Assembly: GCF_900156165.1 (NCBI RefSeq)
Contig: NZ_FTMY01000001.1
Span: 496,001 to 560,000, forward strand
From: Pseudacidovorax sp. RU35E
GTDB lineage: Bacteria; Pseudomonadota; Gammaproteobacteria; Burkholderiales; Burkholderiaceae_C
DNA: 64,000 nucleotides
Direction of reading: 5' to 3'
Part shown: positions 44,948 to 62,373 of the stretch, one piece after another
How positions within the stretch are numbered: the first letter of the stretch is position 1
Layout: every line of letters starts with the position of its first letter
The notes under the pieces: model-generated
Seen by the model: the letters and a program-made list of their open reading frames with translations, nothing else
What the model was told of the DNA's origin: nothing
Database searches by the model: none
Position numbers and translations under genes: made by a program

Positions 44948-46261
44948 ATGGCGTTCTATGACGCGCGTGCGGCAAAGCTGCTGCAACCGGGTCAACACAT
45001 TGTCGTGCAGGACTGTCCGGGCCTTCGGCTTGTGGCAGGCAAGACGAGTAAGACCTGGGTGTACCGGTACCGCAGCCCCACCGATGCCGCGCTGCGCCAG
45101 GTGAAGATCGGCGCGTTCCCGGCGCTCGGTGTGGGCGAGGCCATTAGCGAGTGGCAGCGCCTGCGTGACCAGCGCGAGGCAGGCACCGATCCTGCGCAGG
45201 CGAAACGCGAGAACCGTGCCCGCGCCATCAGCGCGGCGGCGGCGAAGCAGTACACCATCGGCCAGATGGTCGAGGACTATGCGGCCGGCTACCTTGCCAA
45301 CAACCGGGAGCCCAAAGGCGCCCACGCTGTGGGTCTCCGCTTGCGGGCGGCGCATGCATCGCACGCCGACATTCCGGCTGCGGCCACGACGCGCGCCCTG
45401 GTGTTCAGCACCATCGAGGCGCTGCTATCGACACCGGTGGCGGCAAAGTCGGTGAAGGTGGAAACGGCCGCCGCGTGGCGCTACGCGGTCGAGGCGGGGA
45501 AGATTCCTGAGGATTTGCCGAATTGGTGGGGCGAGAAGACCTCGCACCGCTTCCGCAGCAAGGGCGCGCTACGCGCCGGTGAGCACAAGGGCACCGCAAA
45601 ACGCGTGCTGGCGCCGCAGGAGCTGCGCGTGCTGATGCGCGAGGACCTGAACCTTTTCAGCAGACAGGTTGCGCAGTTCCTGCAGTTGCAGCTGTGGACG
45701 TGCACGCGCGGGGGCGAACTCTGCCAGATGCGACGCAATCAGATCGCCCAGGAGAAGGACGGCTGGTGGTGGATCATCCCGAAGGCCGAAATGAAGGGCC
45801 GACACGTGCAGGCCGCGTTCGATCTGCGGGTGCCGCTGGAGGGAAGGGCCAAGACTATCGTGCTGGAATTGCTGGCCCGCGTGCCGGCCGACGTGCCCTG
45901 GCTCTTTCCGAGCCGCAGCCGCGATGGCCAGATCAGGGGCCAGAGCCAGGCGTACATGCAGAGCAAGGTGCACTACATGCAGCCCTACAGCAACGCCCGT
46001 GAGGATCACGCCCGCGAGCGGCTGAAGGTCACCCATTGGTCACCGCACGACCTGCGGCGGACTGGCCGCACAATGCTGGCGCAGATGGGGTGTCCCCACG
46101 AAGTGGGGGAGGCGATCTTGGGCCACGTGCTCCCAGGCGTGGCCGGCGACTACAACCTTTACCGCTACGACGCCGAGCGTCGGCTTTGGCTCAGGCAGCT
46201 CTCGGATCGGCTGGAGCAGATTGCTGGGACGAGCCCGCTTGAGCATCTGCCGCACGCTTGA
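44948..46261 (+). CDS. int: Tyrosine-type phage integrase (P4-like, Arm-binding domain)
   Basis: Catalyses site-specific integration and, with an excisionase, excision. The 437 residues have an N-terminal DUF4102/Arm-binding domain (about 1-90: QDCPGLRLVAGKTSKTWVYRY) and a core-binding domain (about 100-200). The catalytic domain shows the first Arg in WTCTRGGELCQM, HDLRR (HxxR), LGHVLPG and Tyr in the DYNLYRY segment. Its start lies directly against a GTGTAG repeat. The last 71 bases overlap a convergent AlpA-type gene. Confidence 0.95.
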   Translation: MAFYDARAAKLLQPGQHIVVQDCPGLRLVAGKTSKTWVYRYRSPTDAALRQVKIGAFPALGVGEAISEWQRLRDQREAGTDPAQAKRENRARAISAAAAKQYTIGQMVEDYAAGYLANNREPKGAHAVGLRLRAAHASHADIPAAATTRALVFSTIEALLSTPVAAKSVKVETAAAWRYAVEAGKIPEDLPNWWGEKTSHRFRSKGALRAGEHKGTAKRVLAPQELRVLMREDLNLFSRQVAQFLQLQLWTCTRGGELCQMRRNQIAQEKDGWWWIIPKAEMKGRHVQAAFDLRVPLEGRAKTIVLELLARVPADVPWLFPSRSRDGQIRGQSQAYMQSKVHYMQPYSNAREDHARERLKVTHWSPHDLRRTGRTMLAQMGCPHEVGEAILGHVLPGVAGDYNLYRYDAERRLWLRQLSDRLEQIAGTSPLEHLPHA

Positions 46262-47377: not shown

Positions 47378-47715
47378 GATGCCTTCCTCCCTTTCGCGGG
47401 CGGCGCTTTCGCCTTCGTGTAGGCACCGCCGTGGCGGCCCGCCTTGTTGAGGCCTTGCAGGGTGCTGCGGTCGCGCCCTTCTGCGCGGGCGCGCTCCACT
47501 GAGCGGGTGCTCGTCGCGCGCTTGGCGGCGTGCACCTGCAGAGCGGCGCCGATGGTGCTGCCGCTCAGTGCGGCGACTTGGCAAAAGGCGGACAGCGGCG
47601 ATGCCGGCCGGCCAGCAGGCCAGCGCGGATCGCGGCCCGCGGGTAGGGGCGTGGTCTTCATGCGGGTTCCAGGGGTAGAGGAGGAGGGAGAGGGGCGAGG
47701 GCGGGGCGAGGTCAT
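47374..47715 (-). CDS. Hypothetical basic phage protein
   Basis: Not recognised. ATG 47715 overlaps the methyltransferase stop (ATGA) and gives 113 residues; an internal ATG at 47661 would give 95. The first 18 codons are a pyrimidine-rich tract (Pro/Ser/Arg). The rest is Ala/Arg/Lys-rich with a possible HTH-like stretch PLSAFCQVAALSGSTIGAAL and a basic tail, suggesting nucleic-acid binding, which is inference. Confidence 0.6.
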   Translation of the reverse strand: MTSPRPRPSPSSSTPGTRMKTTPLPAGRDPRWPAGRPASPLSAFCQVAALSGSTIGAALQVHAAKRATSTRSVERARAEGRDRSTLQGLNKAGRHGGAYTKAKAPPAKGRKAS

Positions 47716-49679
47716 GCGGCCAGCCTTTCCGCCGCGAATTCGCGATAGTTCGCCGCCACGAGCAGGCGCATGGGCAACGGGCTCACGCTGTTGCCCGCCA
47801 TGCGCACCTGTGCCGTCTTGGTCAGCGGCTTGCTGCCGGCGGTGCGGTCGATGACATAGGAGGGCGGGAAGTCCTGTGCGTTGTAGAGCTCGCGCGGCAC
47901 CAGCATGCGCAGCGTGATGTCCACGATCACCCAGGGCTCGCCCTGCAGCCAGACGGTCACCAGCGCGAGGCGGTCATGCGTGGTGATGGTGGTCATCGGC
48001 TCGCGCAGGTCGGCCCATTGGCCGCCGCTGGCGTGGTAGCGCATGAGGAAGGCGGCGCAGCGCAGCGCGCCTGCCTCGTGCTCTTTGCTCAGCTCGTACT
48101 GCACGAGGGCGTGATGCTCGGCGCTGGCCGTGATGGTCGACGCGGGTTCATCCATGGCCCGGCCGTTGCAGTCGCGGCGCAGCGTGACCATGTGCGCCGC
48201 CGTGAGCTGCTGCTGACTGCCCGATGTGGTGACGGTGGAGACGCCTTCGCGTAGGTCGCGGGCATGGCTGCTGTTGAACCCGCCATTCGCCTGCACCATG
48301 AACGCGGACGCGAGGCCGTGGCTGGTGCTGCTGGCCGTGACCGTGCCGAGCGCGTCGCGCAGGTCGTTGGCTCCAGCACTGCGGCGCTTGGTCTTGCCGC
48401 TGCCCTCGCCGTGGCCGGCCTGAACGAGACAGGCCGCAGCGGTGGCGAACTTCTGGCCGCCGGCAACGATGGTGCCAAGGGGCTTGCGCGGATCGAGTGA
48501 ACGCGGCTCCTGTCCCGGGCGCTCCCCGTAGCCCATCTGCACGAGGTGCGCCGCCGTCATGGCCATCTCGCCGCGGCGGGCAGCCGTGACGGTGGGCAGA
48601 GGCTCGCGCGGGTCATAGTTGCGATGGCCGCCCTGATGCGTGAGCGGCAACAGGTGCGCCGCAGCGAGGGCGGTCTCGCCACCCTTGGCCGTCGTGACCG
48701 TGCGCAACGGCTTGCCAATGTCGAAGGCGGTATCCCTCGTGTGCGTGACGGGCACCAGCGCGGGCGACATGCCGGCGACGATGAACGGCTCTGGCGTGTC
48801 CAGCACATATCTGCGCATGCCATGGGCGATGCGCCGCATGGTGGCCTCGGCCAATGGCTTCTTACGGCCAAAGATGCTCGTGCCCGGAATGCTCCAGTCG
48901 ATGCAGTCGGCCGCCGGGCGATGCGGCTGGAGTCCGGCGCGAGGCCGCTTGGCGTGCGTCTGCGCGGGCCACACGATGGGCAGGCCATCGCAGCGGGCGA
49001 CCATGTACAGCCGCGTTCGCGTGCTGTGCGCGCCGAGGTCCGCATTGCAGATCACGCGCCATTCCACCTTGTAGCCCAGCGCGCGCAGTGCCCCGACGAA
49101 GTGCTCCCAGTTGCGACCCTTGCGGGTGGGATCAGGCACAAGGAACTGATTGCGCCGAGGCACCCGCTCCCCAGGCTCGGCCACGCGGTGCACGAGCTTT
49201 CCCGAAACGGCATCGCGCGCGCGGTCGAGCGTCAGCACGCGGCCAGTGGCTGGATCGCGCTTGGCGATCAGCGGGGACCACAGCAGCATCTGCTCGACGT
49301 TCTCCAGCGTGATGACGTCCGGCCGCGCCTTGCCGGCCCAGCGCAGCACCTGCCAAGCAAGCGAACGGATCTCGGATTTGCGCGGCTGGCCGCCGAGCGC
49401 CTGGGAATGGTGGGTGCAGTCCGGCGATGCATGCAGCAGGCCCACGGCCTGGCCGCGCGTCACAGCCAGCGGATCGACCTCGCGGATGTCGGCGCGGTAA
49501 TGGCGCGTCTGCGGGTGGTTGACTTCGTGCATGCCGATGGCCTCGGCATCGTGGTTGATCGCCACGTCCACCGGGCGACCAATGGCCTGCTCGATGCCGG
49601 TCGACGCACCGCCGCCGCCTGCGAACAGGTCGATCACCAGCTTGGCCGCCAGCGGCAGCAGGAATTGCGGGGTCAGCAT
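47712..49679 (-). CDS. Phage DNA (cytosine-5) methyltransferase with a repeat-built target-recognition region
   Basis: Methylates cytosine in DNA, in phages usually to evade host restriction. The 655-residue protein has SAM motif I FAGGGGAS (19-26). The catalytic cysteine, Cys88, is in SPDCTHHSQ rather than the standard PCQ. Other motifs are LENVE (125-129), STRTRLYMVA (219-228) and motif X AGNSVSP (628-634). Between about 313 and 580 the chain has seven repeats of 33-49 residues built on PLxTVTA...AAHLV, TVT cores near 327, 363, 403, 446, 482, 515 and 564. This is where the target-recognition domain should be. It overlaps genes on both sides. Confidence 0.9.
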   Translation of the reverse strand: MLTPQFLLPLAAKLVIDLFAGGGGASTGIEQAIGRPVDVAINHDAEAIGMHEVNHPQTRHYRADIREVDPLAVTRGQAVGLLHASPDCTHHSQALGGQPRKSEIRSLAWQVLRWAGKARPDVITLENVEQMLLWSPLIAKRDPATGRVLTLDRARDAVSGKLVHRVAEPGERVPRRNQFLVPDPTRKGRNWEHFVGALRALGYKVEWRVICNADLGAHSTRTRLYMVARCDGLPIVWPAQTHAKRPRAGLQPHRPAADCIDWSIPGTSIFGRKKPLAEATMRRIAHGMRRYVLDTPEPFIVAGMSPALVPVTHTRDTAFDIGKPLRTVTTAKGGETALAAAHLLPLTHQGGHRNYDPREPLPTVTAARRGEMAMTAAHLVQMGYGERPGQEPRSLDPRKPLGTIVAGGQKFATAAACLVQAGHGEGSGKTKRRSAGANDLRDALGTVTASSTSHGLASAFMVQANGGFNSSHARDLREGVSTVTTSGSQQQLTAAHMVTLRRDCNGRAMDEPASTITASAEHHALVQYELSKEHEAGALRCAAFLMRYHASGGQWADLREPMTTITTHDRLALVTVWLQGEPWVIVDITLRMLVPRELYNAQDFPPSYVIDRTAGSKPLTKTAQVRMAGNSVSPLPMRLLVAANYREFAAERLAA

Positions 49680-56017: not shown

Positions 56018-56593
56018 GTGAAGGTCATCCCACTGTTGGACCAGCCCATATCCCAGGCTGAGTTCGCTCAGCTCATCGGCGTCAGCGAGGCGCGCGTGAG
56101 TCAGCTTGTGAGCGAGGGCGTCATTGCCCGCGGCGATACGGCATCGGCTTGGCTGCTCGGCTACTGCGAGCGCCTGCGCGATCAGGCGGCCGGCCGTGCA
56201 GGCGCGGAGGCCGGCGGCCTCGACCTCGTGCAGGAGCGCGCTGCCCTCGCGCGGGAGCAGCGCATCGGCCAGGCCATCAAGAACCAAGTGGCCCGCCGTG
56301 AGTTCGCCGCCGTGGGTCTGCTGGCCGATGTGCTTGCGCGCGCTGCCAGCGCCGTGGTCGACCGCTTCGATCAGCTGGAGGGCACGCTGCGCAAGGCCGT
56401 GCCCGACCTGCCGGACGAGGCGAAGGTCGCCGTGCTGCAGGTGGTCGCGCACGCGCGCAACGAATGGATCCGCGGAACCGAGCGCCTCGTCGCCGAAGAG
56501 GTCGACGCCATGATGGCGGCGGAAGAAGAGTTGCAGCAAGAAGAAGACGACCGCTGGGCCGGTCTACCGGACGCGACAGGCCATGAGTCTTAA
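56018..56593 (+). CDS. Terminase small subunit, Nu1-like
   Basis: DNA-recognition subunit of the packaging motor, binding near cos. GTG 56018 follows AAGGGGGTTAA. The 191 residues have an N-terminal winged-helix domain (SQAEFAQLIGVSEARVSQLV, residues about 12-31). A helical middle and an acidic C terminus rich in Glu (EEELQQEEDDRW) probably contact the large subunit. It overlaps terL by 11 bases. Confidence 0.88.
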   Translation: MKVIPLLDQPISQAEFAQLIGVSEARVSQLVSEGVIARGDTASAWLLGYCERLRDQAAGRAGAEAGGLDLVQERAALAREQRIGQAIKNQVARREFAAVGLLADVLARAASAVVDRFDQLEGTLRKAVPDLPDEAKVAVLQVVAHARNEWIRGTERLVAEEVDAMMAAEEELQQEEDDRWAGLPDATGHES

Positions 56594-58643
56594 TCCTCCC
56601 ACGCTTCATCCGGAAACGGCCGAGGCCATCAAGGCCGCCGTCCGCCTGGGCCTCGACAGCCTGCGCGCCGACCCGCCGCAGCGACTGGGCGACTGGGCCC
56701 AGGACGAATTCAAGCTGGCCGGTGAAAGCAGCCACACGAAGGGCGCCTGGCTCGCCTGGGCCTTTCAGGTCGGCATCCTCGACTTCATGAGCGATGACCG
56801 TATTGAGGAACTTGACGTGATGAAGGCCAAGCGCGTCGGCTACACGAAGATGATCACCGCCTTCGTTTGCTACAACATCGCGCACCGCCGCCGGAAGCAA
56901 GCCCTGTGGCAGCCCACGGACGACGACCGGGACAGCTACGTCAAGAGCGAGATTGACCCGCTGCTCGATCCGCAGACGGGCGTGGCCGCGGTCAACAAGG
57001 CCCGCAAGCGCGGCAAGGGCCCCAATGACGAGACGATCAAGCTCAAGAGCTTCCGGGACAGCGTCCTGCACCTGCTCGGTGGCAAGGCCGCGCGCGCGTT
57101 TCGCCGAATCACGGTGGCCGTTTCCATCCTCGATGAGATCAGCAAGTTTGACCGCAGCATCGAGAAGGCCGGCCCGCCGCGCGGCCTGGCTCGCGGCCGA
57201 TTGGAGGGCGCGCCGTATCCGAAGCTCGTGTGCGGCTCCACGCCGCTGCTCAAAGGGCTGTGCCACATCGAGGACGCGGCCAACGAGGCCGAGGGCTTCG
57301 TGCGCTTTCACATCGAGTGCCCGCACTGCGGCGCCGATCACCCGCTGATGTGGGGCGGCAAAGATAAACGCCACGGCTTCAAGTGGGACCGCGGGCACCC
57401 GCAGACGGTGCACCACGTCTGCCCGCACTGCCATGAATCCATCACGCAGGCCGACTACCTTCGCGGCGGCATGCCGCAGCAGGGAGAGTGGGTGTGCGAG
57501 CGAACCGGCAAGCGCTACGGGACCGACCGCACCTGGCGCGACAGCGCCGGCACGCCCTGCCGCCCACCGCGCAGCCTGGCCGTGCACGTCTGGACGGCGT
57601 ACAGCCCGCAGCGCGCGTGGTCCGACATCGTGGAGGAATTCGAGAACGGCCTGAGGGCACTGGAGAAGGGCGACGCCGGCCCCATGCAGCTCTTCGTGAA
57701 CGAGACGCTGGGCGAGACGTGGGAACTGGCCGGCGAGCGCACCGATGAGCACGTCCTGCAGGCCCGCGCCGAGCCCTACAAGCTGCAGACGGTGCCGGTG
57801 GGCTGCCTGGTGCTCACGGCCGGCGTCGACGTGCAGCGCAACCGCTGGGAAATCACGGTATGGGGATGGGGCAGGGGGCTGGAGTCCTGGGTGATCGACG
57901 TCGTCGTGATTGAGGGAAATCCGGCGGTGGACGAGGAATGGGCGGCTGTCACCGCGCAGCTGCAGCGCCGCTATCGGCAGGACTGGCACGGCGGCAGCCT
58001 GGGCCTGAGTGCCATCAGCATCGACAGCTCGGACCAGACGCAGGCGGTCTACAACTGGGTCAGCAAGGCACAGCACGTCCTGCCGCAGCTGCGGGCCATC
58101 AAGGGCGATGGGAACGAGGCCATCAGCATCCTCGGGCCCAGCAGCCTGCAGGAAGTGAACTGGCGGGGACGCAAGATCGCGAGGGGCATCAAGCTATGGC
58201 GCGTGGGCACGGACGCGGCTAAGGACCTGTTGCTCGGACAGCTCGCCATTGACCAGCCGGGCCCAGGCTACGTGCATTTCTCTAACGAGCTACCCCGCGA
58301 CTTCTTCGAGCAGCTTACGGCAGAGCAGCGCGTGCTCGCAAAGCTCAATGGACGCGATGCCTATCGATGGGTGAAGCGACGGCCACGCAATGAGCAGCTC
58401 GACAACCGCAACTACGCGCTGCATGCGGCTCTCGGTCTTGGACTGGACCGCTGGCCGCAGGAGCGATGGGTCAAGCTCGAAGCTGCTCTGCAGCCTGCCA
58501 AAGATCTGTTCGCGTCAGACATGTTGTCAGCCAGGCACCCTGACGCATCAGCTAACTCAGATCCTAAGCCGTTGCCGCTTCAGACTTCGCCTCAGCGGCA
58601 CAACGCCGCTGAAGACCTTCTATTCGACCCCATCGCGCTATGA
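56583..58643 (+). CDS. Terminase large subunit, lambda GpA family
   Basis: ATPase and nuclease of the DNA-packaging motor. The 686-residue protein carries a GpA-type Walker A-like VMKAKRVGYTKMITA, a Walker B VSILDEISKF, and a zinc-finger-like pair of CxxC motifs (CPHCGADHP and CPHCHESIT). Nuclease-domain acidic residues are in LTAGVDVQRNRWEI and SAISIDSSDQTQAV. GpA-type terminases cut at cos. The last 100 codons use less GC than the body of the gene. It overlaps the Mor-domain gene by ATGA. Confidence 0.95.
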   Translation: MSLNPPTLHPETAEAIKAAVRLGLDSLRADPPQRLGDWAQDEFKLAGESSHTKGAWLAWAFQVGILDFMSDDRIEELDVMKAKRVGYTKMITAFVCYNIAHRRRKQALWQPTDDDRDSYVKSEIDPLLDPQTGVAAVNKARKRGKGPNDETIKLKSFRDSVLHLLGGKAARAFRRITVAVSILDEISKFDRSIEKAGPPRGLARGRLEGAPYPKLVCGSTPLLKGLCHIEDAANEAEGFVRFHIECPHCGADHPLMWGGKDKRHGFKWDRGHPQTVHHVCPHCHESITQADYLRGGMPQQGEWVCERTGKRYGTDRTWRDSAGTPCRPPRSLAVHVWTAYSPQRAWSDIVEEFENGLRALEKGDAGPMQLFVNETLGETWELAGERTDEHVLQARAEPYKLQTVPVGCLVLTAGVDVQRNRWEITVWGWGRGLESWVIDVVVIEGNPAVDEEWAAVTAQLQRRYRQDWHGGSLGLSAISIDSSDQTQAVYNWVSKAQHVLPQLRAIKGDGNEAISILGPSSLQEVNWRGRKIARGIKLWRVGTDAAKDLLLGQLAIDQPGPGYVHFSNELPRDFFEQLTAEQRVLAKLNGRDAYRWVKRRPRNEQLDNRNYALHAALGLGLDRWPQERWVKLEAALQPAKDLFASDMLSARHPDASANSDPKPLPLQTSPQRHNAAEDLLFDPIAL

Positions 58644-58951
58644 AACGATTGCCTATTCCTGCTGACGACCCACTGGCGATCATCGAAGACGAAGCTCGTT
58701 CCGTCGCAGTGCAGTATGGTGCTCAGTGGTCGAACGAGGCTGCGACGACGTTCATGCGGCGTCTCGCCGAGCGGCTTGGAGGAGCGCAGCTGTACGTGCC
58801 CCGGCTCAGCATCTCAGCGCGGCGTACGCGGGATGAACAGATCCGCGCGCAGTTTGACGGCCGCAACGCCCGCCAGCTCGCCCGTGAGTTTCATACCTCT
58901 GAACGGACTGTCCGCCGCGTCCTGGCCCGTGGTCACCTCGAAGCGCCTTAA
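58640..58951 (+). CDS. Mor-domain transcription regulator
   Basis: Predicted DNA-binding protein of the Mu Mor/C family, which activates phage middle or late transcription. The 103 residues include GGAQLYVPRLSISARRTRDE and IRAQFDGRNARQLAREFHTS followed by ERTVRRVLARG, the typical Mor beta-sheet plus HTH. It overlaps terL by 4 bases and its stop TAA forms the palindrome TTAA (58948-58951) shared with the stop of the receiver gene on the other strand. Confidence 0.82.
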   Translation: MKRLPIPADDPLAIIEDEARSVAVQYGAQWSNEAATTFMRRLAERLGGAQLYVPRLSISARRTRDEQIRAQFDGRNARQLAREFHTSERTVRRVLARGHLEAP

Positions 58952-59319
58952 CACCTTGGTGCGGACAGGACACCTATCAGCTTCTCAAGGTCCAAGGGTT
59001 TCGTAAAGCAGTGCGTGAAGGGTCCCGAAAGCCGCAATCCATCGACGCGGAGTGCATTGCCCGAGACGGCCAACAGCATCGGAGCCTTCGCGCCCAGCTC
59101 TTTCAACAGGTGATTGGCTGCCACCTCGCCATCCATGCGGGGCATCTCGAGGTCGAAGACGACAAATGTTGGCAGAGTTCGCCGGACAGACTCGATAGCC
59201 TCAACACCATCGTATGCAACACCGACGGTGCAATGTTCAATAGTGTCCTGGAGGATCAACTTGAGCAGTTGAGCAGTATCCTCATCATCATCGACAACAA
59301 GGATGTGAAAGTCGTTCAT
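58948..59319 (-). CDS. Stand-alone response regulator (CheY-like receiver)
   Basis: Predicted phosphorelay receiver without an output domain. ATG 59319 is 6 bases downstream of GAGG on the minus strand, a good ribosome site, and gives 123 residues. All receiver landmarks are present: Asp10, Asp11 and Asp12 (VVDDDED), phosphoacceptor Asp56 (FDLEMPRMDG), Ser86 (AVSGNA) and Lys107 (FTKPLD). Its start codon overlaps that of the divergent histidine kinase (CATG 59317-59320) and its stop overlaps that of the Mor gene. Base composition is lower in GC than the phage genes around it. It is a cargo gene rather than a packaging gene. Confidence 0.9.
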   Translation of the reverse strand: MNDFHILVVDDDEDTAQLLKLILQDTIEHCTVGVAYDGVEAIESVRRTLPTFVVFDLEMPRMDGEVAANHLLKELGAKAPMLLAVSGNALRVDGLRLSGPFTHCFTKPLDLEKLIGVLSAPRC

Positions 59320-60433
59320 GAGTGCCTCAAAACCAACCAAGATGCGACTTTCAGAGTTCATCACCCTTCGAGCCGACGACATCTTGGAAGAGGCTGTGCA
59401 GTTTGCTCAAGCGCTGCCGGCACTGGCGCGCGCTTCACGAGCAGAAGTACGAGACCACTTCAGGGAGTGCCTGGACGAAATTGTCATGCGGATGCATGCG
59501 GTCGAGGGTAGGACAGAAGCGGGAGAACCTGATGGTGCTCAAGACGCTGCGGAGCCCATGACTGCGGCCCAAGATCATGGAGCAGCACGCGCGAGGGACG
59601 GACTCACCGTGGTTGAACTTGCCGCGGAGTACCGAACATTGCGTGCGTGTGTGCTGAGACTGTGGCGAGACGAATGCGGGCCTCAGCCTGAGGATCTGGA
59701 CGATCTGATGCGCTTCAACGAGACCATCGATCAGGCTCTCATGGAGTCGATTGAACGGTTTGAGGAACAGGTGGAGTACTGGCGACGAATTTTCCTTGGC
59801 GTGATCGGGCACGACCTGCGGGCCCCGCTAAACGCTATTGCGCTGACTGCAGAATTGCTGCGGCTCAAGGCAAAAGAGGACGTAGCTCGCCACACTGCCG
59901 TCATCGCCCGGGCAAGCAAACGCATCGGCAGCATGCTCGATTCACTGCTTGAGTACGCAAGCAATCGTCCTGGCTCTCCAATGTCGCTTCGGAAAACGGA
60001 CGTAGACATAGCTGTGGCCATGGAGGATGAGATTCAGATTCTCCGCGCTGCGTTTCCGTCCAGACGCATTGAACTGTCCCTTGTCGAGCCGGGCGAGGCC
60101 ATGGTCGATGCCTCTCGACTGCGGGAAGCCGTAGCGAACCTGGTTTCTAACGCGGCACAGCATGGCTCTGGCGAAACGGTCGATGTGGCGGTGCGGGGGG
60201 CGGAGGGTCAATTGGTGGTCGAGGTGTCCAACGATGGTCATCTGTCGGAACATGAGCTTTCCAACCTGTTCGAGCCGTTCAAAGCGACGCGCAGGGACTT
60301 TCACGGCCAGCAGGCGAATCTAGGTTTGGGCTTGTTCATCTGTCGTCAGATCGTGGACGCGCATGGCGGCAAGATCAGCATTGCATCTAACTCGGGACGC
60401 GTGCGCGTCAGCATGCAGTTTCCTAACCAGTGA
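59318..60433 (+). CDS. Soluble sensor histidine kinase
   Basis: Cytoplasmic kinase likely paired with the adjacent receiver. The 371 residues from ATG 59318 (ATG 59342 is an alternative; neither has a strong ribosome site) contain no membrane helix. Residues about 10-110 resemble an RsbR/RsbRD-type N-terminal signalling domain, and a coiled-coil linker follows. HisKA is next with His165 in GVIGHDLRAPLNAIAL. The HATPase domain has N278 (ANLVSNAAQHG), NDGHLSEHEL and NLGLGLFICRQIVDAHGGKI. It is transcribed in the direction of the head genes and is followed by a 114-base gap before gpW. Confidence 0.9.
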   Translation: MSASKPTKMRLSEFITLRADDILEEAVQFAQALPALARASRAEVRDHFRECLDEIVMRMHAVEGRTEAGEPDGAQDAAEPMTAAQDHGAARARDGLTVVELAAEYRTLRACVLRLWRDECGPQPEDLDDLMRFNETIDQALMESIERFEEQVEYWRRIFLGVIGHDLRAPLNAIALTAELLRLKAKEDVARHTAVIARASKRIGSMLDSLLEYASNRPGSPMSLRKTDVDIAVAMEDEIQILRAAFPSRRIELSLVEPGEAMVDASRLREAVANLVSNAAQHGSGETVDVAVRGAEGQLVVEVSNDGHLSEHELSNLFEPFKATRRDFHGQQANLGLGLFICRQIVDAHGGKISIASNSGRVRVSMQFPNQ

Positions 60434-60547
60434 TGTTGGCTTGAGGCGTAACTCCCATAACTGAGTGGCGCTTAGGCAGTTAGCTTGGACAACTGTCTGT
60501 GACTTTGCCTCTGTGACTTGGCTCGCCGCATCAGGTCTCATCCATGG

Positions 60548-60775
60548 ATGGGCCTGTATCGTCATTCAACCGACCAAGAACTGCAGCAGCTTCGCGGCAA
60601 GCTGTTCGCTTCGCTGCACGAGCGCCTGACGGGCCCCACCTCGGCGACGGTTAACGGCCGAGGCGTCCAGTACCAGCAGCGCACCGATGAGCTGCGCCGC
60701 GAGCTGGCGGATATCGATGCCGAGCTGAATCGTCGCGCTGGCGTACCGCTGCGCGGCCCCATCTACCTCGTATGA
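60548..60775 (+). CDS. Head-tail joining protein W (gpW-like)
   Basis: Small protein that closes the portal after DNA packaging. ATG 60548 gives 75 residues: LYRHSTDQELQQLRGKLFASLHERLTGP (broken here for length) is the gpW helical start, then YQQRTDELRRELADIDAEL and PIYLV. A TTG at 60518 would add 10 residues, but the ATG is normal for the family. Its stop overlaps the portal ATG (ATGA). Position between terminase and portal matches lambda. Confidence 0.82.
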   Translation: MGLYRHSTDQELQQLRGKLFASLHERLTGPTSATVNGRGVQYQQRTDELRRELADIDAELNRRAGVPLRGPIYLV

Positions 60776-62373
60776 CGATGGGCCGCCGTGCAAAGCGCTT
60801 CGGTCGAAGCGTTTCCCTCGCTGTGCCTGAGTCCGGGGCTGCGTCTAGCCCCAGCATGGCCGCTCACCATGCGGCCGGCCATGACCATGCAATGTTCGAT
60901 TGGCACCCGGGCGGCGGCAGCGCGGATGCGGACCTCCTGCCGGACCTGGACCTTCTCACGGCCCGCTCGCGCGACCTCACGCGAAACAACGGCCTCATGG
61001 CCGGCGGCATCCAGACGCTGCGCGACAACATCGTCGGCGCGGTGCTGCGCCTCTCGTCCACGCCCGATTACCGGCTGCTCGGATGGTCCCGCGAGAAGGC
61101 CCGGGAGTGGGGCAACAACACCGAGGCCCATTTCCGGTCCTGGGCCGAGACCACGGAATGCGATGCCGGCCGCTCGCTCAACCTGCTCGGCCTCACGCTG
61201 CAGGCGCTAAGCGGCAGCATGGTCAACGGCGACGGCCTGGGCCTGCCGCTGTGGCTGCCGCGCTCGGGCAGCTCGTGGGCGACCCGCATCATGCTGGTGG
61301 AGTCCGACCGGCTCGCCACGCCGCCGGCCATGGCGGCCATGCCGCACATCCGCGGCGGGATCGAGTTCGACCGGTACGGCGCGCCGACCTTTTACAACGT
61401 GCGTCGCAGCCATCCGGGCGATGCAATGGGTGCATGGGCTTCCGGCGCCGACGAATGGGAGCGCATCCCCGCGTTCACCGCCTGGGGCCGCCGCCGCGTC
61501 CTTCACCTGCACGACAAGGAGCGCACGGGCCAGTCGCGCGGTAAGCCCATCGTTGCCGCGGTCATGCGCGAATTCCACATGGCCGGCAAATACTCCAGCA
61601 ACGAGCTGGAGGCCAGCGTCGCCAATTCGCTGGTAGCGGCTTTTCTTGAGTCGAACCTCGACGAGGAATCGGCCGGTGCGCTCTTCGGGCAGGATCCGCG
61701 CGCGGCGTGGGGCGAGTCCGTCAAGCAGGCGCGCAACCTGCGCCGCATGCAGGGCGCGGCCATCATTCCGCTGCCCGTGGGCGCCAAGGTCTCCAGCTTC
61801 ACGCCGGGCCGGCCCAACGCCGCCTTCGAGGCGTTCATGCTGGCCGTGTTGCGGCACGTCGCCGCGGGCCTCAATCTCCCCTATGAGCTGCTGCTGAAGG
61901 ATTTCAGCAAGACCAACTACAGCAGCGCCCGTGCCGCGCTGCTGGAAGCCTGGCGCTACTTCCACGGCCGACGCCGCTGGCTCATGGATTACTGGCTGCG
62001 GCCCATCTATGAGCTGTGGCTCGAAGAAGCCATCAATTCCGGCCTGGTCGAAGCCCCGGACTTCTACGCGAAGCGCTATGCCTTCTCGCGTTGCCGCTTC
62101 ATCTTTGGCGGCCGTGGCTGGGTGGACCCGGTCAAGGAAGCCAACGCGGCGCAGATCCGCATGGCCGCCGGCATCTCCACCCTGGAGCAGGAATGCGCAG
62201 AACAGGGCTGGGACTACGAAGAAATCATGGACCAGCTCGCGCTGGAGCGCCGCATGCGCGCCGCGCGTGGCATTCCTGAGCCGGCCGCGCCCGCTGCTGC
62301 ATCGCCGGCCGCAGAGCCAGACGACACCGAGGCGCTGCCCGAGGACGCCGAAGCGGAGGGCCTCCCCCAATGA
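60772..62373 (+). CDS. Phage portal protein, lambda gpB family
   Basis: Dodecameric portal at the capsid vertex through which DNA is pumped. The 533-residue protein has the family core: ARSRDLTRNNGLMAGGIQTL near residue 64, then HLHDKERTGQSRGKPIVAAV, and NLPYELLLKDFSKTNYSSAR near residue 370. A Pro/Ala/Glu-rich C-terminal tail follows. It overlaps gpW and the protease gene by 4 bases each. Confidence 0.93.
   Translation: MTMGRRAKRFGRSVSLAVPESGAASSPSMAAHHAAGHDHAMFDWHPGGGSADADLLPDLDLLTARSRDLTRNNGLMAGGIQTLRDNIVGAVLRLSSTPDYRLLGWSREKAREWGNNTEAHFRSWAETTECDAGRSLNLLGLTLQALSGSMVNGDGLGLPLWLPRSGSSWATRIMLVESDRLATPPAMAAMPHIRGGIEFDRYGAPTFYNVRRSHPGDAMGAWASGADEWERIPAFTAWGRRRVLHLHDKERTGQSRGKPIVAAVMREFHMAGKYSSNELEASVANSLVAAFLESNLDEESAGALFGQDPRAAWGESVKQARNLRRMQGAAIIPLPVGAKVSSFTPGRPNAAFEAFMLAVLRHVAAGLNLPYELLLKDFSKTNYSSARAALLEAWRYFHGRRRWLMDYWLRPIYELWLEEAINSGLVEAPDFYAKRYAFSRCRFIFGGRGWVDPVKEANAAQIRMAAGISTLEQECAEQGWDYEEIMDQLALERRMRAARGIPEPAAPAAASPAAEPDDTEALPEDAEAEGLPQ

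Follow-up and report, generated by a model that had tools for sequence, protein, structure and literature searches.

What a two-component signalling pair is doing among the head genes of a prophage is the question raised by a stretch of 64,000 nucleotides from Pseudacidovorax sp. RU35E, here called the window. A preliminary description, made from the letters alone, had placed a complete stand-alone receiver and a soluble histidine kinase with intact catalytic residues between the terminase and Mor genes and the gpW and portal genes of a lambda-like prophage. This placement was borne out (Table 1). To the left of the pair lie the genes for the small and large terminase subunits and the Mor-family ORF, and to the right the gpW-sized ORF, the portal gene and an S49 head protease gene. 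As the gpW-sized ORF gave no Pfam or PHROG match, its name rests on size and position. The coordinates, domain calls and motifs of the pair also held, with the addition that the two genes are divergent, and the receiver, a single PF00072 domain, has no output domain, as had been supposed.

Table 1. Features of the pair and its surroundings (window positions)
Feature	Position	Strand	Basis
Terminase large subunit (terL, gpA family)	56583-58643	plus	Pfam, PHROG
Mor-family late-activator-like ORF, 103 aa, left slot border	58640-58951	plus	PF08765, E 1.8e-15
Stand-alone CheY-like receiver, 123 aa	58948-59319	minus	PF00072, E 2e-13
Soluble histidine kinase, 371 aa	59318-60433	plus	RsbRD_N sensor, HisKA, HATPase_c
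gpW-sized ORF, 75 aa, right slot border	60548-60775	plus	Size and position
Portal protein, lambda family	60772-62373	plus	Pfam, PHROG
Block missing from empty relative L041 (about 70 bp there)	58882-60482		Flank alignment

Both proteins scored well above the Pfam cut-offs: 50.9 bits against 30.2 for the receiver (PF00072) and, for the kinase, 45.7 against 26.9 for HisKA (E 6.9e-12) and 70.9 against 26.4 for HATPase_c (E 1.5e-19). Receiver residues D10/D11, D56, S86 and K107 are all kept; we take these to be the acidic pocket, the phosphoacceptor (D56) and the S/T and K positions of receivers. The kinase retains H165, the N-box from residue 274, F318 and the G2 box from residue 336, and its G1 box reads N-x-G (NDG at 305), not D-x-G. 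The G1 motif is not strictly kept across the kinase family: this Asn is common to all 13 aligned relatives, and the Gly is replaced by Ala in L245 and L204.

The nominal start codons of the two genes overlap in CATG at 59317-59320. Relatives of the kinase typically start at MRLxxF, which corresponds to 59342 here, and if the kinase begins there the two starts may be 22 bp apart. A GAGG sequence is located five bases 5' of the receiver ATG. No sigma-70-like promoter was found in 58500-60900 by a scan that covered this promoter type only and had a chance expectation of only 0.5. The G+C content of the receiver (54.0%) and kinase (58.2%) genes is lower than that of terL (67.1%, over 56583-58300) and of the portal gene (68.6%). 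As the two are intact domain proteins with full-length relatives elsewhere, the pair is more than chance, and both genes are real and intact.

Judged by its ORF order the prophage appears complete: it runs from position 44948, where an integrase-like gene lies, to near window-equivalent 91840 (gene names by eye). An IMG/VR record of 46,893 bp encodes a 100% identical kinase with equal ORF spacing and, by arithmetic, starts at the same base as the prophage. A 655 aa ORF in the early region (47712-49679, minus strand) gave partial matches to DNA cytosine methylases. A second possible cargo block lies at the right prophage end, outside the window (C17:579835-583387, window-equivalent 83835-87387), and contains two ORFs of lower GC3, one of 711 aa that by eye begins like OLD/AAA proteins and one of 340 aa. 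At 2497-2591 of the window ARAGORN called a tRNA-Ser with anticodon act, which is unusual in bacteria; the call may be a misreading.

The pair had been regarded as a lone insertion breaking the contiguous A-W-B gene order. Viral contigs with relatives of the terminase or of the portal protein were compared, using the best 80 loci of each (160 loci). Terminase and portal were present in the required order and score in 62 of these, and 37 junctions were left after identical junction sequences had been dropped, near-copies such as L060 and L068 being kept. Mor and gpW matches were found in 34 of the 37 (L142, L143 and L151 had no Mor match). Among these 34 junctions, drawn from the best 80 loci of each search and with gap lengths extrapolated from the matches, the Mor-gpW site is empty in five (40-68 bp; L041, L141, L162, L174 and L176) and filled in 29, where a gap of 576-5537 bp, 1600 bp in this prophage, holds varied genes.

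Two alignments define the exchanged block. The window matches the empty relative L041 with 81.8% identity up to 58881 and 83.5% from 60483. It matches L040, the nearest prophage (terL 92%), with 90.5% identity up to 58512 and 90.0% from 60495; the block between (58513-60494) does not match, and in L040 the slot is filled by an AAA ATPase gene. As the flanks align and the contents differ in both comparisons, blocks have been exchanged at this point. The Mor-gpW junction is, therefore, a cargo hotspot in related lambda-like prophages, and the idea of a solitary break in the A-W-B order had to be given up.

Of the 160 loci, the two that contain kinase and receiver belong to the contig of this very prophage, and neither gene was found at the 36 other non-identical terminase-portal junctions (best 80 loci of each), L040 included. 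That the pair is accessory, as had been proposed, was thus confirmed: among the 37 junctions the slot is filled by it in this prophage only. The preliminary description had named two signs that would speak against a phage-carried system, absence from related prophages and the presence of an IS scar or degraded genes. The former was observed at these 36 junctions; the latter was not, both genes being intact and no IS remnant being recognised by eye at the pair.

Before gpW, at 60483-60547 of the window, an element with half-sites around a TTTnGTGA-like core was noted by eye. A similar element stands before gpW in many empty and filled junctions, with half-site letters that vary among phages (by eye). 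The Mor-like protein could act on this candidate element, and the tolerance of cargo between Mor and gpW would then be explained.

The genome of the same strain contains a paralogous divergent pair (C17:209978-211447), its receiver at 209978-210334 and its kinase at 210353-211447. Like other Comamonadaceae pairs, it shares with the prophage pair the same two proteins, the divergent orientation, the short spacer and the domain order; it differs in identity (46% for the kinase, 45% for the receiver) and is located outside this prophage. Divergent receivers of the same type also adjoin the related kinases of L011/L229, L200, L202, L204 and the viral contig L245, the receivers of L011 and L229 (Pseudacidovorax sp. 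NFM-22) being identical, and on a megaplasmid of Variovorax boronicumulans a response regulator and a sensor kinase are annotated in this divergent order. The genes around the bacterial pairs differ (urease-D-like, IS66-like, alaS-like and cytochrome; by eye, or by annotation for the megaplasmid). At least 42 of 399 Comamonadaceae genomes, this one included, gave a kinase match (E up to 1e-35), a lower bound because the best five candidates per genome were scored.

In a kinase tree of 59 rows and 392 columns, the seven labelled pairs fall within one nine-row clade (support 100/98). Its remaining rows are L201, whose divergent receiver is of a different type, and L203, beside whose kinase no divergent receiver was found. 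The window kinase, on a long branch (1.31, flagged), is sister to L200 (98/91), and L245 is sister to L201 (100/100); L200 and L201 come from bacterial genomes. As the window and L245 copies are each sister to bacterial copies, two separate transfers between bacterium and phage are indicated, and we infer that these went from bacterium to phage. The cargo of the prophage was very probably captured from a bacterial genome, and the pair is, judged by these sequence comparisons, a portable module of Burkholderiales genomes. It is indeed carried by a lambda-like prophage, as had been described, but it is not phage-specific, since the same divergent pair occurs in bacterial genomes and on a megaplasmid. 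The earlier suggestion of cross-talk with host relays is made plausible by the paralogous pair.

Kinases of the family are encoded at 29 viral loci, this prophage included. A divergent stand-alone receiver lies upstream in five of the 29, namely L009 (this prophage), L245, L254, L261 and L271, where the receivers of the last four were also seeds of the receiver profile and some of the other 24 loci begin inside or near the kinase (e.g. L256 and L270). Judged by its genes L245 is a different phage, unrelated to this prophage: PHROG matches were obtained for a replication protein (3.3e-42), both terminase subunits (large 2.8e-57, small 4.3e-70) and a portal (1.5e-169). Its pair lies some 2.3 kb upstream of the gene for the small terminase. 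PHROG phage genes were also found within about 3 kb of the kinase on L246 (endolysin and tail), L248 (Zot-like) and L252 and L261 (tail protein). The remaining IMG/VR contigs are not claimed as phage because proviruses there can include host flank. A search of 50,697 phage records gave a single match, in phiAH14b, that spans 80% or more of the kinase, and partial matches in 86 further records.

Two side observations were made on these contigs. RsbRD_N kinases are present on contigs with filamentous-phage-like genes (L248, L251, L264 and L269), the Zot-like gene being confirmed for L248 only. Between the pair and the small terminase gene of L245 lies an ORF with an IPTL-CTERM-like tail (L245:5235-7585, by eye), and past this ORF a stretch like the small-terminase start appears again.

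The N-terminal region of the kinase scored 23.1 bits for RsbRD_N (PF14361) in the whole protein, just below the cut-off of 24.3, and 26.3 bits, above it, when the domain was scanned alone. This domain was matched in all 21 aligned family members (E up to 0.01), and the sensor is assigned to RsbRD_N on these profile matches. Structure comparison pointed to the globin-like fold class, with 9-13% identity to the globin-fold sensors 3zta (a stressosome domain), 4zva (the globin domain of DosC) and 3pmc (pXO2-61); the sensor is probably globin-like. Two conserved His columns, at domain residue 39 (18 of 21) and domain residue 79 (20 of 21), are only suggestive of a putative site for heme or another ligand.

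Comparison of the window kinase with its own paralogue gave 46 of 75 identical residues in the docking, or dimerisation, domain, 61 of 137 in the N-terminal domain and 60 of 151 in the catalytic domain, so that 46/75 in the docking domain stands against 121/288 in the rest (Fisher p 0.004). A similar result was obtained for the window kinase and L200 (48/75 against 135/288, p 0.009). The bias was absent for the window kinase with L205 and with L246, and the docking domain was not favoured between L002 and L200 (52, 63 and 50%). The bias rests on a single lineage, that of the window kinase with its long branch (1.31), and higher conservation of docking domains is in any case common. It fits retained partner specificity and, possibly, exchange of phosphate with the host pair.

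The explanation that we consider best, though largely inferred and with belief and doubt evenly balanced, is that the pair is lysogenic-conversion cargo in a variable slot and would tune the paralogous relay of the host. A lambda-like phage would have picked up the divergent pair from a bacterium and kept it between the Mor gene and gpW. With the late operon silent in the lysogen, the two genes would be transcribed outward from the short region that their starts share. The kinase would read a cytosolic cue through its sensor domain, autophosphorylate at H165 and pass the phosphate to D56 of the receiver, and it is quite likely that the two form an active phosphotransfer pair. Lacking an output domain, the receiver would act through contact with other proteins or serve as a phosphate sink. 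The likeliest consequence would be phosphate exchange with the host's pair, and thus lysogenic conversion by tuning of the host relay, because the docking domain has diverged less from the host paralogue than have the sensor and catalytic domains. That the pair acts chiefly on the signalling of its lysogenic host has an even chance of being correct; direct cross-talk with the resident paralogue is a tentative proposal and somewhat doubtful. The loss of the G1 glycine in the phage copy L245, the failure of the sigma-70 scan to find a promoter, the occurrence of this cargo in this slot in one prophage only (among the 37 junctions) and the presence of an upstream receiver at so few of the viral loci count against this explanation.

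The other contents of the slot point elsewhere. Of the 28 other filled loci, 19 were examined with PADLOC (PADLOC-DB 2.0.0 of 2023), each through one or two of its cargo ORFs (28 ORFs in all); L062, L068, L094, L098, L099, L137, L139, L140 and L195 lay outside the scan. Near full-length defence matches were obtained in five of the 19: Thoeris ThsA (2.8e-198) and ThsB (2.2e-52) in L119, DSR2 (7.2e-131) in L059, Lamassu LmuA (5.3e-149) and LmuB (1.5e-219) in L071, the candidate PDC-M48B (6.3e-150) in L055, which lies next to a patatin (together a candidate MBL-plus-patatin system), and the defence-type reverse transcriptase UG17 (1.2e-148) in L096. Partial or weaker matches were seen in eight (L040, L061, L064, L100, L107, L158, L197 and L198), and in the other six there was no match for the scanned ORFs (L054, L060, L067, L074, L101 and L111). 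Pfam domains of the cargo include Mrr (L060), PIN_8 (L074 and L137), RHS (L067), NACHT (L064), TIR with a DnaB-type helicase domain (L198) and RelA_SpoT (L107). In a control with 10 other window proteins two matched, both partially and to generic families. The slot is, therefore, rich in defence genes yet not restricted to them.

In the same slot L099 has a 345 aa ORF with an HATPase_c_2 match below the cut-off, followed by a 107 aa ORF (L099:7720-9077), perhaps a second kind of signalling cargo.

Such company suggests, as well as conversion, an anti-phage module acting on superinfection, in which the kinase would sense infection stress and the receiver would trigger a protective host response. 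This is nevertheless unlikely for the present pair. The kinase matched no PADLOC family at E up to 0.001, and the receiver had no strong match, its best (E 6.3e-5, residues 1-63) being to the candidate PDC-M60B. No defence genes were recognised, by eye or from annotation, around the inspected bacterial pairs, no effector is present in the block, and the six scanned loci without a PADLOC match show that the slot is not for defence only. Detocs is a three-component defence with an adjacent third protein, a receiver with an effector domain; in the swapped block no third domain protein was seen.

A related reading takes RsbRD_N kinases, with or without a divergent receiver, as recurrent cargo of temperate phages and satellites, citing this prophage, L245 near its terminase, the contigs with tail genes, the filamentous-phage contig and the phiAH14b satellite. 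The sensor would here capture a host stress- or gas-sensing relay, possibly for superinfection resistance, as the functional equivalent of a defence system. We give this reading little credence.

The pair might instead serve the phage itself, reading the state of the host to tune the lysis-lysogeny decision or late gene expression, as its position directly between a Mor-like activator gene and the gpW-sized ORF would allow. Its absence from the 36 other junctions (best 80 loci of each), even from the nearest prophage, the varied cargo that the slot takes and the want of a DNA-binding part in the receiver make this improbable. Equally improbable is an inert passenger, captured bacterial DNA under no selection, for which the single occurrence at this site (best 80 loci of each) and the long branch would speak, since both genes have stayed open with intact motifs though only about half of the residues match the nearest relative, and such a pair is also found on an unrelated phage contig.

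Among the published systems closest to the present pair is phiAH14b, whose histidine kinase AH14b_p22 (KU708005) was reported in 2016 and is placed in a satellite phage, its benefit to the host being a matter of speculation by the authors (PMC4936722). AH14b_p22 is a full-length homologue of the window kinase (34.6% over 96%). In contrast to the present prophage, phiAH14b is a 16.8 kb satellite, and no receiver was found beside AH14b_p22. The P2 hotspot is alike in that conserved phage genes flank a set position where cargo, often anti-phage systems, is interchanged, but it belongs to another phage family and another site, near cos and between gpA and gpQ; the main text of its description does not use the term two-component. 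No description of the Mor-gpW slot or of a prophage kinase/receiver pair was found in the open-access literature searched. Thus phage-borne kinases are not new; what is new is a kinase/receiver pair in the Mor-gpW slot. The complete pair and its paralogue, present in one host, offer a natural experiment in which to ask if bacterial signalling can be edited by a phage that brings a kinase and receiver of its own, and similar lambda-like prophages may be searched for defence and conversion genes at the Mor-gpW slot.
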